Assembly (NCBI GenBank): GCA_001825665.1
Contig: MHXZ01000108.1
Span: forward strand, 1-36,282
Source of the DNA: Planctomycetes bacterium GWF2_41_51
Lineage (GTDB): Bacteria > Planctomycetota > Phycisphaerae > Sedimentisphaerales > UBA12454
Direction of reading: 5' to 3'
DNA: 36,282 nt
The notes under the pieces are model-generated. The model was not told the origin of the DNA, searched no databases, and saw nothing but the letters and a program-made list of their open reading frames with translations. Made by a program: the position numbers and the translations under genes. Positions 4,151 through 32,865 of this stretch are shown one piece after another (positions within the stretch are counted from its first letter, which is position 1; each line of letters opens with the position of its first letter).

Positions 4151-6181
4151 ATGCAGACAGAAGAAAAAAAGGCAGCCGTTGTTTGTCTGATAGCACTAAT
4201 TTTGAGTATCATCTTTTTTCCCGCCTGTTATATTTTAAGCCGGGTAACGGGTGTTTTCGCTTTATTTGCTTTAAGCTGGCAGATACTCGCGGCGGCGGCA
4301 ATATGGGCAGTGTTGGCCATTCAGTTTTACCAGCGTGCATTGGCTGAGCAGGAAAAGTTTGATATTGCCCAGCTTGCCCAAAATAGCCAAAGCGACACTA
4401 TTTTTGAAGCTCAAAAAAGGCAATCAGAATATTTCGCAGTCGCTCAAAACAGGCTCAAAATTTTTGAGAAATGGTTCCTCCCGATTTTTTCAATTCTCAT
4501 CGCCGCATTTCAAATCGTTATGGGTGCTCTTCTGATAAGAAGAACCATAAACGGGCAAACTGGCGAAGAAATGAACAGTCTGCTTCTTGGTGCTGTTCTT
4601 TCATCGGCAATAGCGTTTATGAGTTTCCTGTATTCACTTTATGCAAATGGTCTTTCCGCACAGGCAAAATGGAAGCCGATTAGAGCAGGAGCAGGTTTCT
4701 TCCTTGCCACCGCGGTTCTTTCTTTTGCTATTGCAGCCGGTATGGCATTTGCCCAATTTAAAGTTCAGATAGTGCTTACAGTTCTAAACTGGGTTGTTCC
4801 TATTGTACTTTTACTGGTCGGATGCGAAGTGATATTAAACTTCGTATTTGATTTATACAGGCCGAGAATAAAAGGCCAATACAGCAATGCCGCTTTCGAC
4901 AGCAGGCTGCTTGCCACAATCTCATCCCCGCAAAATATTCTGCATACAGTCGCAGGCTTTATCGATTACCAATTCGGTTTTAAAGTTTCACAGACATGGT
5001 TCTATAAGATTGTCGAACAGGCGATAATTCCGCTCATAGTTGCCTCAGCCATTATCCTTTACCTCTTGAGCAGTGTTGTCATTGTTGACCCCGGTTCGCA
5101 GGCAATAGTCGAAAAATTGGGTTCGCCTTATGATTCAAAGGGAAACGTAAGAATTGCTGATTCCGGCATTTCTTTTAAGCTGCCTTGGCCTTTCGGAATC
5201 GCCAGAATATTTCCAACCAAAGAAATGCAGGAAATATATATTGGATATGTACCGATGGATGAAGGCAAACATCCGCTGCTTTGGGACAAGGAGCATTATA
5301 AAGAAGAATATAACTTGCTGGTCGCTACTGAAAGTATCAGTTCTCAGGAAAAAGGTGCGGTGCCTGTAAGTATTATCCGGGCGGCAATACCTGTTCAATA
5401 TCGTGTTGTTGACCTTTACAAATATATTTACAATCATTCTGACAGCAAAGAGCTTCTGAAAAATATATGCTACCGTGAGCTGGTAAGTTTCGCGGCAGGC
5501 GCAAGAATCGAACCTGAATCTGAAAGCGGCGAAGAAAGTTTGCTCGGCGCCGGCAGGGCAAAGGCCGCTGTTGTTGTTATGAACAATATTCAGCAGCAGG
5601 CTGATAAACTCGGCTTGGGTGTTGAAATCGTATTTATGGGTTTCGAAGGTTTTCATCCGCCGCCAACCGTTGCACAGGATTTTCAGGCCGTTACTGGTGC
5701 CGTGCAGAAAAAACAGGCTGCGATACTCGAAGCAATCTCAGTGCGAGACAGGATTTTTACCGGAAATACAGGCTCAGTAAAACAGGCTGAAGGTTTACAT
5801 AGTCTTGCTGCAAAATATTTGAAGGCAACCCAGAAAGGCGACAAGAAGGCAACCGATGAAATCAAGCTTCAGCTTGACCAGGCCTTTACAGATGCCAGCG
5901 GCGAACTTTTCTTTAAACTAAGAGAGGCGCAAAGTTATGCCTTCGAAAAATCTATTCTCGCAAAAGCCACAGGCGAAAGATTTAGTCAGCAGTTGAAAGC
6001 CTATCAGGCTTCGAAGAATATTTATACTCACGAATTGAAGATGGGTATGCTTGAAGAAACGCTGGCGAAAATAAGAAAATTCATCATTGTTTCCGACAGC
6101 GATACGGAAGTAATGATTCTTGATTTGCAGGAAAAACTTGTTCCAAGCTTGTATGAAGCCCAGCCCGAAGAGCAAAACTAA
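4151..6181 (+). CDS. SPFH (band 7) protein with multi-pass N-terminal membrane domain
   Basis: This 676-residue protein is first of three SPFH genes. Hydrophobic helices run at about 9-30, 36-58, 108-130, 143-165, 178-202, 205-232 and 290-311. The SPFH domain starts right after the last one (VVIVDPGSQAIVEKLG, residue 309 on; then SGISFKLPWPFGIARIF) and runs to about 500. An Ala/Lys/Gln-rich helical region follows to about 650. HflK/HflC, the best-known relatives, have one membrane helix and form a cage around FtsH, so the seven-segment front is unusual. No ftsH lies in the window. It is 34 bases from the next SPFH gene. The family is clear; its role as a membrane-microdomain scaffold is inference. 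Confidence 0.85.
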   Translation: MQTEEKKAAVVCLIALILSIIFFPACYILSRVTGVFALFALSWQILAAAAIWAVLAIQFYQRALAEQEKFDIAQLAQNSQSDTIFEAQKRQSEYFAVAQNRLKIFEKWFLPIFSILIAAFQIVMGALLIRRTINGQTGEEMNSLLLGAVLSSAIAFMSFLYSLYANGLSAQAKWKPIRAGAGFFLATAVLSFAIAAGMAFAQFKVQIVLTVLNWVVPIVLLLVGCEVILNFVFDLYRPRIKGQYSNAAFDSRLLATISSPQNILHTVAGFIDYQFGFKVSQTWFYKIVEQAIIPLIVASAIILYLLSSVVIVDPGSQAIVEKLGSPYDSKGNVRIADSGISFKLPWPFGIARIFPTKEMQEIYIGYVPMDEGKHPLLWDKEHYKEEYNLLVATESISSQEKGAVPVSIIRAAIPVQYRVVDLYKYIYNHSDSKELLKNICYRELVSFAAGARIEPESESGEESLLGAGRAKAAVVVMNNIQQQADKLGLGVEIVFMGFEGFHPPPTVAQDFQAVTGAVQKKQAAILEAISVRDRIFTGNTGSVKQAEGLHSLAAKYLKATQKGDKKATDEIKLQLDQAFTDASGELFFKLREAQSYAFEKSILAKATGERFSQQLKAYQASKNIYTHELKMGMLEETLAKIRKFIIVSDSDTEVMILDLQEKLVPSLYEAQPEEQN

Positions 6182-30412: not shown

Positions 30413-30571
30413 TTAATCGTTATCAATCTCCCTCTCAAGATTACGTGTAACTGTCAACTGCAAAGATATTAACGTAATAAGTTGTTTTACATGGCTCAGT
30501 ATTCTCTCTCGCTTTTTTGGTTCTATTTTATTCCTGGGCCGCTCTTTTTGATTGTTTTTTCTGCTTTTCAT
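30413..30571 (-). CDS. Small basic protein divergent from the repressor
   Basis: This is a 52-residue ORF with a strong Shine-Dalgarno, AAGGAG, 9 bases before the ATG. The first 24 residues are Lys/Arg/Asn-rich (MKSRKNNQKERPRNKIEPKK). The rest, from about 22, is a likely amphipathic helix or coiled coil (ILSHVKQLITLISLQLT). It is transcribed away from the LexA/CI-like repressor, and its upstream region contains the repressor's operator-like repeats, so it is a candidate target. A -35/-10 pair TTGAAA-N16-TTAAAT overlapping those repeats is possible. The family is unknown. A Cro-like or effector role is conjecture. Confidence 0.55.
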   Translation of the reverse strand: MKSRKNNQKERPRNKIEPKKRERILSHVKQLITLISLQLTVTRNLEREIDND

Positions 30572-30584
30572 CTATAAGAACTCC

Positions 30585-30613
30585 TTGACTGATATTCCTT
30601 TTTATGGTATTAT
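30585..30613 (+). promoter_or_regulatory. Sigma70 promoter of the LexA/CI-like repressor
   Basis: TTGACT (30585-30590), 17 bp, TATTAT (30608-30613), the same boxes and spacing as the Rrf2 promoter. The start would be near 30620, leaving a leader of about 78 nt that contains the repeated operator-like sites. Confidence 0.7.
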
Positions 30614-30624
30614 TTTAAAAATAC

Positions 30625-30689
30625 TACGCAATTAAGTGTATTTAATACGCATTTGCGAATATTTCAAGTATAAAATTCGCATTTACGAA
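30625..30689. promoter_or_regulatory. Phased operator-like repeats in the repressor leader
   Basis: Two 14-bp sites, TACGCATTTGCGAA (30646-30659) and TTCGCATTTACGAA (30676-30689), match at 12 of 14 bases and are each near-palindromes (TTCG/CGAA). They start 30 bp apart, three helical turns. A half-site TACGCA at 30625 lies 21 bp before the first. They sit between the repressor promoter and its start codon and upstream of the divergent small gene. Confidence 0.6.
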
Positions 30690-30697
30690 AACTTTTT

Positions 30698-31651
30698 ATG
30701 GATGAACTCGAAAAAAGCATAATACATAGGATAATTGGTGTTCGAACATCGCTGGCAGGCGAGCGAGGCCGCAATAAATTCGCTAAAATGCTTGACCTAA
30801 GCCCCTCTACATACAGCTATTACGAAAAAGACAGAATCCCGCCCGTTCCGGTTCTTGTTAAAATCTGCCAGTTATGTAACATTGATTTGAACTGGCTTTT
30901 GACTGGTAAAAATGGCGAATCAGATAAAGCAATTTCGAGTGAACACCTTAAAATAATTGCAAAAACCCAAAAAATCATTGAAAAACAACCAAATTCCGTA
31001 AATGCTCTTTCAGCTTTTTTAAACCTTTTAGAAGAAAAGGCTTCGTTCGAAACGGCGGTAAAATCGCAAAATTCCTCGAAAAACGGCTGGATTCCGGTTT
31101 TGGGCCGAACAGCCGCCGGCGTTCACGGCTCATGGAGTCAGTCAATTGGAACCGATTCGAGGGTTGTTGAAACGCATATTGAACAGTTGGTTCAAAAGCA
31201 TCTGAATTCTTCCATCGTTAATTCTATAACTGCGGATATCACCGTAGATTCCCAGACTAGGGGGATTATACAGGCTTTGAACAAGTCGCAGGCTAATTTA
31301 ATACAAACCACTGGTAATAATGAAGATGATGTTGTTCAATTTGTCGAATGTTCGGAAGTTCACAATCTTTTTCCCGATAGTTTCGCTTTGCAGGTCGATG
31401 GCGATAGTATGTCGCCTCGGATAAACGATAGCGATATCGTCATTGTCAGTCCTTCTTTGGCCGCTGTTGAAGGTCTGCCTGCCATTATTCGCATAAGTAA
31501 TGCAATAGGCGTTACTTGTAAGCTGATTAGAATGGAAGATAAGTCCGTTCATCTTATCCCGATAAACGAAAAATACGAAACGAAAGTAGCGGCTAAAAAC
31601 CAGATTTTGTGGTCTCTGGCCGTAATTTGTCATATTAAATTGAAAAAGTAG
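30698..31651 (+). CDS. LexA/CI-like self-cleaving XRE-S24 repressor with a large insertion
   Basis: This 317-residue protein has an N-terminal XRE helix-turn-helix (about 10-68, GRNKFAKMLDLSPSTYSYYEKDR). The S24 peptidase part starts with the cleavage site WIPVLGRTAAG, with the scissile bond A140-G141. The catalytic Ser is S237 in GDSM and the Lys is K275, 38 residues apart as in LexA (37). The distance from cleavage site to Ser is 96 residues, against about 34-37 in LexA and lambda CI, so roughly 60 residues are inserted (about 150-215, helical, ending in an acidic GNNEDD). RecA-stimulated self-cleavage is expected from the family. It likely represses itself and the divergent small gene. It differs from housekeeping LexA in its XRE-type DNA-binding domain. 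Confidence 0.85.
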   Translation: MDELEKSIIHRIIGVRTSLAGERGRNKFAKMLDLSPSTYSYYEKDRIPPVPVLVKICQLCNIDLNWLLTGKNGESDKAISSEHLKIIAKTQKIIEKQPNSVNALSAFLNLLEEKASFETAVKSQNSSKNGWIPVLGRTAAGVHGSWSQSIGTDSRVVETHIEQLVQKHLNSSIVNSITADITVDSQTRGIIQALNKSQANLIQTTGNNEDDVVQFVECSEVHNLFPDSFALQVDGDSMSPRINDSDIVIVSPSLAAVEGLPAIIRISNAIGVTCKLIRMEDKSVHLIPINEKYETKVAAKNQILWSLAVICHIKLKK

Positions 31652-31749: not shown

Positions 31750-32865
31750 ATGTTATTGCACTTTATTCGGTTCTTTTTTATTGTTATTTTATTTGCTGCA
31801 CTTTTTCTTAGTATCACCAGTCAGGTTGAAGATCCTGCAGAAGCACAGAGACTCACACAAAGTCAGATTTGGATTGTGTTTATAGGGGGTCTTGTGCTTG
31901 CAGTCGTGGTTTTGTTTATCGACTGGCTCCTGCCGAAACGTTCGTTAAGCGCGCTTGCGGGTGTATTTTTTGGTCTCATTGTAGGTATCTTTTTCAGTTG
32001 GGCTCTAACTTTAGTGCTCGACATGATTAATGAGGTTTTCAAAATCGGCCTTGAAGGAAGCAATCTTAAGCTTACAAAATGGATGATGGGAATTTGCATT
32101 TGCTACTTTGTAATCAGCTTCATTATGCGTACAAAGGATGAAGTGCGTTTCATCATTCCTTATGTTGAATTTTCACGTCAAACCAAAGGCGTAAGGCCTT
32201 TGGTGCTTGATACTTCGGTCATTATCGATGGCCGAATAGCCGATATTTGCCAGACAAAGCTGTTCGATGCGCCGTTTATAGTTCCCCGATTTATATTGAA
32301 TGAGCTTCAATTAATTGCAGATTCCGCAGATAAACTCAAAAGAACCCGCGGCCGACGCGGTCTTGATATTCTGCATAAATTGCAGGAAAACACGCATATT
32401 GAAGTAAAAATCGATGATACACCACCTCCGGGCGTTGATGAACACGCACAGGTTGACCAGAAACTTGTCGCTTTCACTAAAAACTGTGATGGCAAGCTTA
32501 TTACCAATGATTATAATCTCAGCAAGGTCGCCCAGGTAAGGCAGGTTGATGTAATTAATATCAATGATTTGACCAATTCTTTGAAAACTGTCGTTCTGCC
32601 CGGCGAATCAATGCAAGTTCGCATAATCAAACCCGGCGAAGAAGCCCAGCAGGGCATTGGCTATCTCGATGACGGCACTATGATTGTAGTCGAAGAAGGC
32701 AGAAGTAAAATTGGCGAAAAAGTCCAAATTGTTGTAACAAGCGCACTTCAAACTTCCGCAGGAAGGATGATTTTCGGCAAATATGACAGGCCCATTAACG
32801 GTCAAAACGATGAAAACGGCAAAGATGTACCAAACAACTACAGGCCCAGAAAACAATACAGTTAA
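31750..32865 (+). CDS. PIN-TRAM membrane protein, YacL-like
   Basis: This 371-residue protein has four membrane segments (about 4-22, 40-60, 67-92, 112-127). A PIN nuclease-like domain follows (about 150-265: LVLDTSVIIDGR with D154 and D160, ELQLIADS, and TNDYN near 255), then a TRAM domain (about 285-345, PGEEAQQGIGYLDDGTMIVVEEGR). This is the YacL plan, a family of presumed membrane-tied RNA nucleases or binders. The PIN acidic residues are present, so activity is possible. GGAG 9 bases before the ATG fits. It has its own upstream region after the repressor gene and no obvious operon partner. Confidence 0.88.
   Translation: MLLHFIRFFFIVILFAALFLSITSQVEDPAEAQRLTQSQIWIVFIGGLVLAVVVLFIDWLLPKRSLSALAGVFFGLIVGIFFSWALTLVLDMINEVFKIGLEGSNLKLTKWMMGICICYFVISFIMRTKDEVRFIIPYVEFSRQTKGVRPLVLDTSVIIDGRIADICQTKLFDAPFIVPRFILNELQLIADSADKLKRTRGRRGLDILHKLQENTHIEVKIDDTPPPGVDEHAQVDQKLVAFTKNCDGKLITNDYNLSKVAQVRQVDVININDLTNSLKTVVLPGESMQVRIIKPGEEAQQGIGYLDDGTMIVVEEGRSKIGEKVQIVVTSALQTSAGRMIFGKYDRPINGQNDENGKDVPNNYRPRKQYS

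Follow-up and report, generated by a model that had tools for sequence, protein, structure and literature searches.

The window analyzed here, a 36,282-nucleotide stretch of the Planctomycetes bacterium GWF2_41_51 genome (contig MHXZ01000108.1), encodes a two-domain repressor and, on the opposite strand, a small protein (Table 1). The repressor open reading frame starts with an ATG at 30698 and ends with a stop codon at 31649-31651. Its N-terminal domain matches HTH_3 (PF01381; 36.4 bits against a Pfam cut-off of 23), and its C-terminal domain matches Peptidase_S24 (PF00717; 52.3 bits against a cut-off of 23.3). In a Pfam search extended to E-values of 1, the LexA winged-helix DNA-binding domain was not found and HTH_3 and HTH_19 matched instead, and the N-domain model resembles P22 c2, ImmR and SinR. 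Thus, the LexA/CI-like label of the initial annotation holds for its CI-like part, given the Cro/CI-type helix-turn-helix, and fails for its LexA part; the genome carries a canonical LexA gene at another locus. The neighboring genes are nusA/infB/rbfA-like open reading frames and a PIN-TRAM gene, not the phage genes that would surround a prophage CI, and full-length relatives were not found in phage records, plasmid records or viral contigs. We regard the protein as probably a self-cleavable repressor of the phage-CI type that belongs to the host chromosome, a judgment made jointly with the local-switch explanation developed below. The PIN-TRAM gene (31750-32865, plus strand) encodes a YacL-like membrane protein and lies directly 3' of the repressor gene here and in many orthologous loci; at L059 and L061, a canonical lexA comes after it.

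Table 1. Features of the repressor locus, with positions in the window
Feature	Positions	Strand	Basis
Small protein encoded divergently, 52 aa, with a basic N-terminus and a conserved helical core (LITLISLQ...RNLEREI)	30413..30571	-	Profile match, purifying selection, conserved beside repressor
Predicted repressor promoter, TTGACT-17-TATTAT	30585..30613	+	Sequence; layout recurs in orthologues
Predicted small-gene promoter, TTGAAA-16-TTAAAT, spacer filled by O1	30640..30667	-	Consensus match
Predicted operator O1, TACGCATTTGCGAA (consensus TTCGCAnnTGCGAA)	30646..30659	.	Paired-site statistics
Predicted operator O2, TTCGCATTTACGAA, with its end 8 bp upstream of the repressor start codon	30676..30689	.	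Sequence, orthologues
CI-like repressor, XRE/HTH_3 + Peptidase_S24, 317 aa	30698..31651	+	Pfam, orthologues
Helix-turn-helix DNA-binding domain, residues 25-72	30770..30913	+	Pfam; structural matches of the model
Predicted self-cleavage site A140-G141 in IPVLGRTAAG	31115..31120	+	Invariant in 44/44 orthologues
Insert (approximately residues 149-209) separating the cleavage loop from the catalytic core; modeled as a helix and two strands	31142..31324	+	Spacing comparison, AlphaFold models
Catalytic nucleophile S237	31406..31408	+	Invariant in 44/44 orthologues; PF00717 match
Catalytic general base K275	31520..31522	+	Invariant in 44/44 orthologues, always 38 residues past Ser

The residues expected of a self-cleaving repressor are all in place. 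A140-G141, S237 and K275 occupy exactly the positions that the initial annotation assigned to them, and the residues that are invariant across the 44 aligned orthologues also include P133, G136, R137, A139, D234, G235 and M238. S237 and K275 are 38 residues apart in the window protein, as the corresponding residues are in every orthologue. The invariance of A139, A140, G141, S237 and K275, together with the fixed distance between Ser and Lys, makes it very probable that selection acts on cleavage at A140-G141 and has kept the cleavage chemistry at a site remote from the nucleophile. The site-to-Ser distance of 96 residues, measured from G141 to S237, agrees with the earlier count. The corresponding spacing in E. 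coli LexA is 35 residues. The comparison set comprised S24 proteins from viral contigs and from three distant genomes, together with the order's ordinary S24 paralogue; in these, the closest A-G or C-G dipeptide that could plausibly be cleaved lies 31-47 residues from Ser, and one comparison protein (L116) has additional A-G dipeptides 63 and 78 residues from Ser. A second, ordinary S24 regulator of about 260 residues (INKVAAGYP..DLGYP) is encoded at G000:C25:301-684 of the source genome and at L020-L030; almost every genome searched within the order encodes it, and its site-to-Ser spacing is a normal 38.

The excess distance is occupied by an insert of about 60 residues that proves to be real, with a conserved length and a partly conserved sequence. 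The site-to-Ser spacing is 84-109 residues in 43 of the 44 aligned orthologues and 69 in the remaining one (L066), which identifies the insert as a family trait and not a sequencing accident. These orthologues are 30-71% identical to the window protein and nearly all planctomycete, and the possibility that the insert is a common S24 linker was not borne out, since no such insert is present in the other S24 proteins examined. The insert diverges more in sequence than the core, and its partly conserved positions include the helix and strand residues T159, L164 and H168 and a VxLIQ motif. At L066 (L049; G005:C153), 27 residues are lost in frame from the second half of the insert; this loss, seen in one draft genome, is either a natural variant or an assembly error.

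AlphaFold models of the window protein and the L075 orthologue, computed with the 44-sequence alignment as input, have mean pLDDT values of 83.3 and 84.1, respectively. The insert is ordered in both models, with pLDDT values of ~60-80 in the window protein and ~64-91 in L075, and folds into a helix (residues 154-168 in the window protein) that is followed by two strands (residues 173-183 and 198-205). The catalytic domain, including the cleavage region, resembles RecA-bound lambda CI (8gmu_A; Z 12.2, rmsd 2.5, 121 aligned residues, model residues 130-315) and LexA (3jso_A; Z 11.4), and the L075 model gives a similar result. Given these matches, the modeled insert bulges from the catalytic domain as an ordered element between the cleavage loop and the core, without splitting the core.

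The insert-bearing repressor appears to be confined essentially to planctomycete bacteria. A whole-genome search detected full-length orthologues within the genus, the family and the order of the source organism, and a species-level genome scan yielded 53 loci. The full-length relatives come from records titled as planctomycetes (Phycisphaerae, Sedimentisphaerales and some Planctomycetia), except for L102, from an assembly titled Actinomycetes, and L070, from an uncultured bacterium; three remote C-terminal matches in the scan stem from other records. When genomes were sampled evenly across the phylum, just one more had a full-length match at E < 1e-20.

What does this repressor control? Upstream of its gene lie two predicted 14-bp palindromic operators, 30-31 bp apart. 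O2 takes up the place of a Shine-Dalgarno sequence, none of which was found before the repressor ATG (30678-30697). Two such sites 30 or 31 bp apart, with at most three mismatches, occur upstream of the repressor gene at 21 of 45 orthologous loci, compared with none in 200 dinucleotide shuffles, and these spacings predominate among the paired sites of the 45 loci. Both operators are located downstream of the predicted repressor promoter, and orthologous upstream regions likewise display a TTGAC-17-TATTAT-like promoter followed by TTCGCAnnTGCGAA palindromes. The predicted small-gene promoter takes the form TTGACA-16-TATTAT in relatives, most clearly in L069, L078 and L090, and a crude consensus scan places an operator between its -35 and -10 elements at 19 of 33 loci. 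The predicted promoters point toward one another, and a short overlap between the two transcripts would be expected. A genome-wide operator search allowing one mismatch returned 29 sites, compared with 7 for a reversed control; 14 of the 15 sites examined fall inside open reading frames, and we therefore claim no wider regulon. Across 40 genomes, the twin half-sites recur at the repressor locus only, and the remaining matches look unconserved. An Rfam search of the neighborhoods found nothing.

The divergent small gene is preceded by a ribosome-binding-like AAGGAG. The profile match of its product reaches 1.3e-16, and relatives occupy the same divergent place at ~33 loci. They combine a lysine/arginine-rich tail with a helical core (consensus L..L..LQ..LL..L) and form a family that is conserved over Phycisphaerae and some Planctomycetia. 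Neither NCBIfam nor, above its cut-off, Pfam gave a match to the small protein. In every pair tested, pN is lower than pS (0.25 versus 0.69 between the window and L066), which indicates that the gene is coding and points to purifying selection on the protein. Matches to the small-protein profile fall almost exclusively next to the repressor: of 59 genomes, 13 contain both the repressor and the small gene, 6 the repressor only, 1 the small gene only and 39 neither, an association with a Fisher p of 8e-8 when related genomes are treated as independent. The repressor and its insert are retained in G004, G008 and G009 with no recognizable small gene, and L066 keeps the small gene although part of its insert is lost. 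These exceptions demonstrate that the insert and the small protein are not strictly coupled and weaken the otherwise attractive case for an action of the small protein on the insert. The twin operators and the divergent small gene, which the initial annotation had missed, tell more about the function of the locus than the insert does. Another small open reading frame (WYP...PPLMVRKAAWR) was rejected as a part of the module because it is found in 50 of the 59 genomes of the order, many of which lack the repressor. Its products, which end in PPLMVRKAAWR(R/K), are ~60-70 residues long, are usually encoded in single copy independently of the repressor and have no Pfam or NCBIfam match; they are located at L048 (minus strand, around 4900-5100), L050, L051, L053, L054, L055 and G000:C45:32440-32625.

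Building on the protein family, the cleavage residues, the insert, the twin operators and the coding small gene, we propose that the locus is a local, autoregulated, self-cleaving switch, an explanation that we consider reasonably probable. Repressor dimers would bind O1 and O2, whose 30-bp separation corresponds to about three helical turns and would enable the dimers to block the output of both promoters. The dimer on O1 would block the leftward promoter of the small gene from within its spacer, and occupancy of both operators would obstruct the repressor's own transcript or leader just downstream of its own promoter. The small gene is thus probably switched off until the repressor cuts itself. 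Once triggered, most probably by RecA activated on damaged DNA or else by another signal, the S237-K275 dyad would cut A140-G141 and part the helix-turn-helix domain from the dimerizing C-terminal domain, so that both genes would be derepressed. As an ordered subdomain placed between the catalytic core and the loop that carries the cut site, the insert would most likely tune cleavage, either by controlling loop docking or by providing a partner with a contact surface. The initial annotation had raised two possible roles for it, signal sensing and an altered triggering of cleavage.

Two alternatives concern the identity of the repressor and the position of its cut. The S24 domain, together with the presence of lexA ~2 kb downstream of the repressor gene in two relatives (L059 and L061), could suggest that the repressor is the organism's LexA and governs a wide SOS regulon. 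However, the protein scores only 20.9 bits in the LexA equivalog test (TIGR00498; cut-off 110.95), and the source genome encodes two proteins above that cut-off elsewhere (G000:C59:4621-5229 and G000:C73:74654-75280), which makes a LexA duplication possible. Combined with the location of 14 of the 15 examined operator-like sites inside open reading frames, these results render a LexA identity extremely improbable. Four proteins exceed the same cut-off in the close relative G001. The spacing from TAAG to Ser, which is far outside the normal range, likewise invites the view that the cut falls at another peptide nearer Ser and that the TAAG motif is merely decorative. The initial annotation had named cleavage at another site as an outcome that would overturn its reading, and the alignment argues against it: an A-G or C-G dipeptide occurs 25-50 residues before Ser, in the region of the usual ~35, in just 13 of the 44 orthologues and at scattered, differing positions, whereas the AAG of the TAAG site is kept in all 44. 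With no A-G or C-G conserved nearer Ser, such a site was rejected, and we consider it very improbable.

The other alternatives accept the local repressor and question the insert or the trigger. The insert may be a bulge that this lineage tolerates and that regulates nothing, in which case the protein would work as an ordinary CI-like repressor. Its divergence relative to the core and the loss of 27 of its residues in L066 are consistent with this view, and a surface-loop insertion should be easily accommodated in the S24 fold. Nonetheless, the narrow spacing range is held down to 30% identity, the T159, L164, H168 and VxLIQ positions are conserved in part, and the insert is confidently folded in the L075 model; a neutral bulge is therefore unlikely, albeit a serious contender. 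By analogy with known small modulators, such as GIL01 gp7 acting on LexA and DdrR acting on UmuDAb, the divergent small protein could also serve as an antirepressor or corepressor that replaces RecA as the trigger and makes cleavage secondary. Its gene lies next to the repressor gene in divergent orientation and is conserved, with evidence of purifying selection, but some repressor-bearing genomes lack it or carry a decayed copy, and the cleavage residues remain invariant in all 44 orthologues, so that we consider this trigger rather doubtful. A bolder version, which we offer as speculation and believe to be quite improbable, makes the insert a dedicated control subdomain on which the small basic protein docks to govern the access of the cleavage loop to S237. 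Self-cleavage would then be set by the partner together with or instead of RecA, as an ancient planctomycete damage or stress switch beside canonical LexA.

The self-cleaving local switch that we favor has relatives among known systems. According to the available text on Francisella FddR (PMC13148647), this S24 repressor also belongs to a self-contained divergent unit, is grouped with lambdoid repressors and is found in Francisella only. That organism lacks a canonical LexA-run SOS response, whereas LexA is encoded here; the FddR operator is GTG-N11-CAC, and the same text mentions no insert of the planctomycete kind. The Acinetobacter UmuDAb-DdrR pair similarly couples an S24-fold repressor to a divergently encoded small protein, with one repressor site overlapping both promoters (PMC7273328, PMC11332147). 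As in FddR- and UmuDAb-type systems, the repressor and divergent gene share operators in our sequence-based prediction. However, UmuDAb derives from UmuD, regulates several copies of umuDC and occurs in a genus that lacks LexA (PMC7273328, PMC11332147), whereas LexA is present here and only a local site was found. On the basis of sequence and models, the planctomycete repressor appears to have the catalytic fold, Ser-Lys dyad and A-G site in common with phage lambda CI and E. coli LexA. It differs from both by the ~60 residues that the insert adds between cleavage site and nucleophile, from lambda CI by its location outside a prophage, and from LexA by its Cro/CI-type N-domain in place of a winged helix. 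The small protein could, by analogy, modulate an S24 repressor as phage GIL01 gp7 does, although gp7 is phage-encoded and acts on the host LexA (PMC4551915).

The two-gene layout thus has precedents, whereas the insert, the planctomycete repressor family and the small-protein family are apparently undescribed; our search of the literature on planctomycete S24 regulators and LexA-RecA structures found nothing on an insert-bearing repressor family. These proteins are S24 repressors extended by a conserved subdomain beside the self-cleavage loop, with no comparable insertion in the other members examined, and they are accompanied by a conserved small protein that is likewise undescribed. Should cleavage proceed with the insert in place, the family would provide a natural system for understanding how the cleavage rate and the response to RecA are tuned, and would represent a second, LexA-independent switch in planctomycetes, whose damage responses are little studied.
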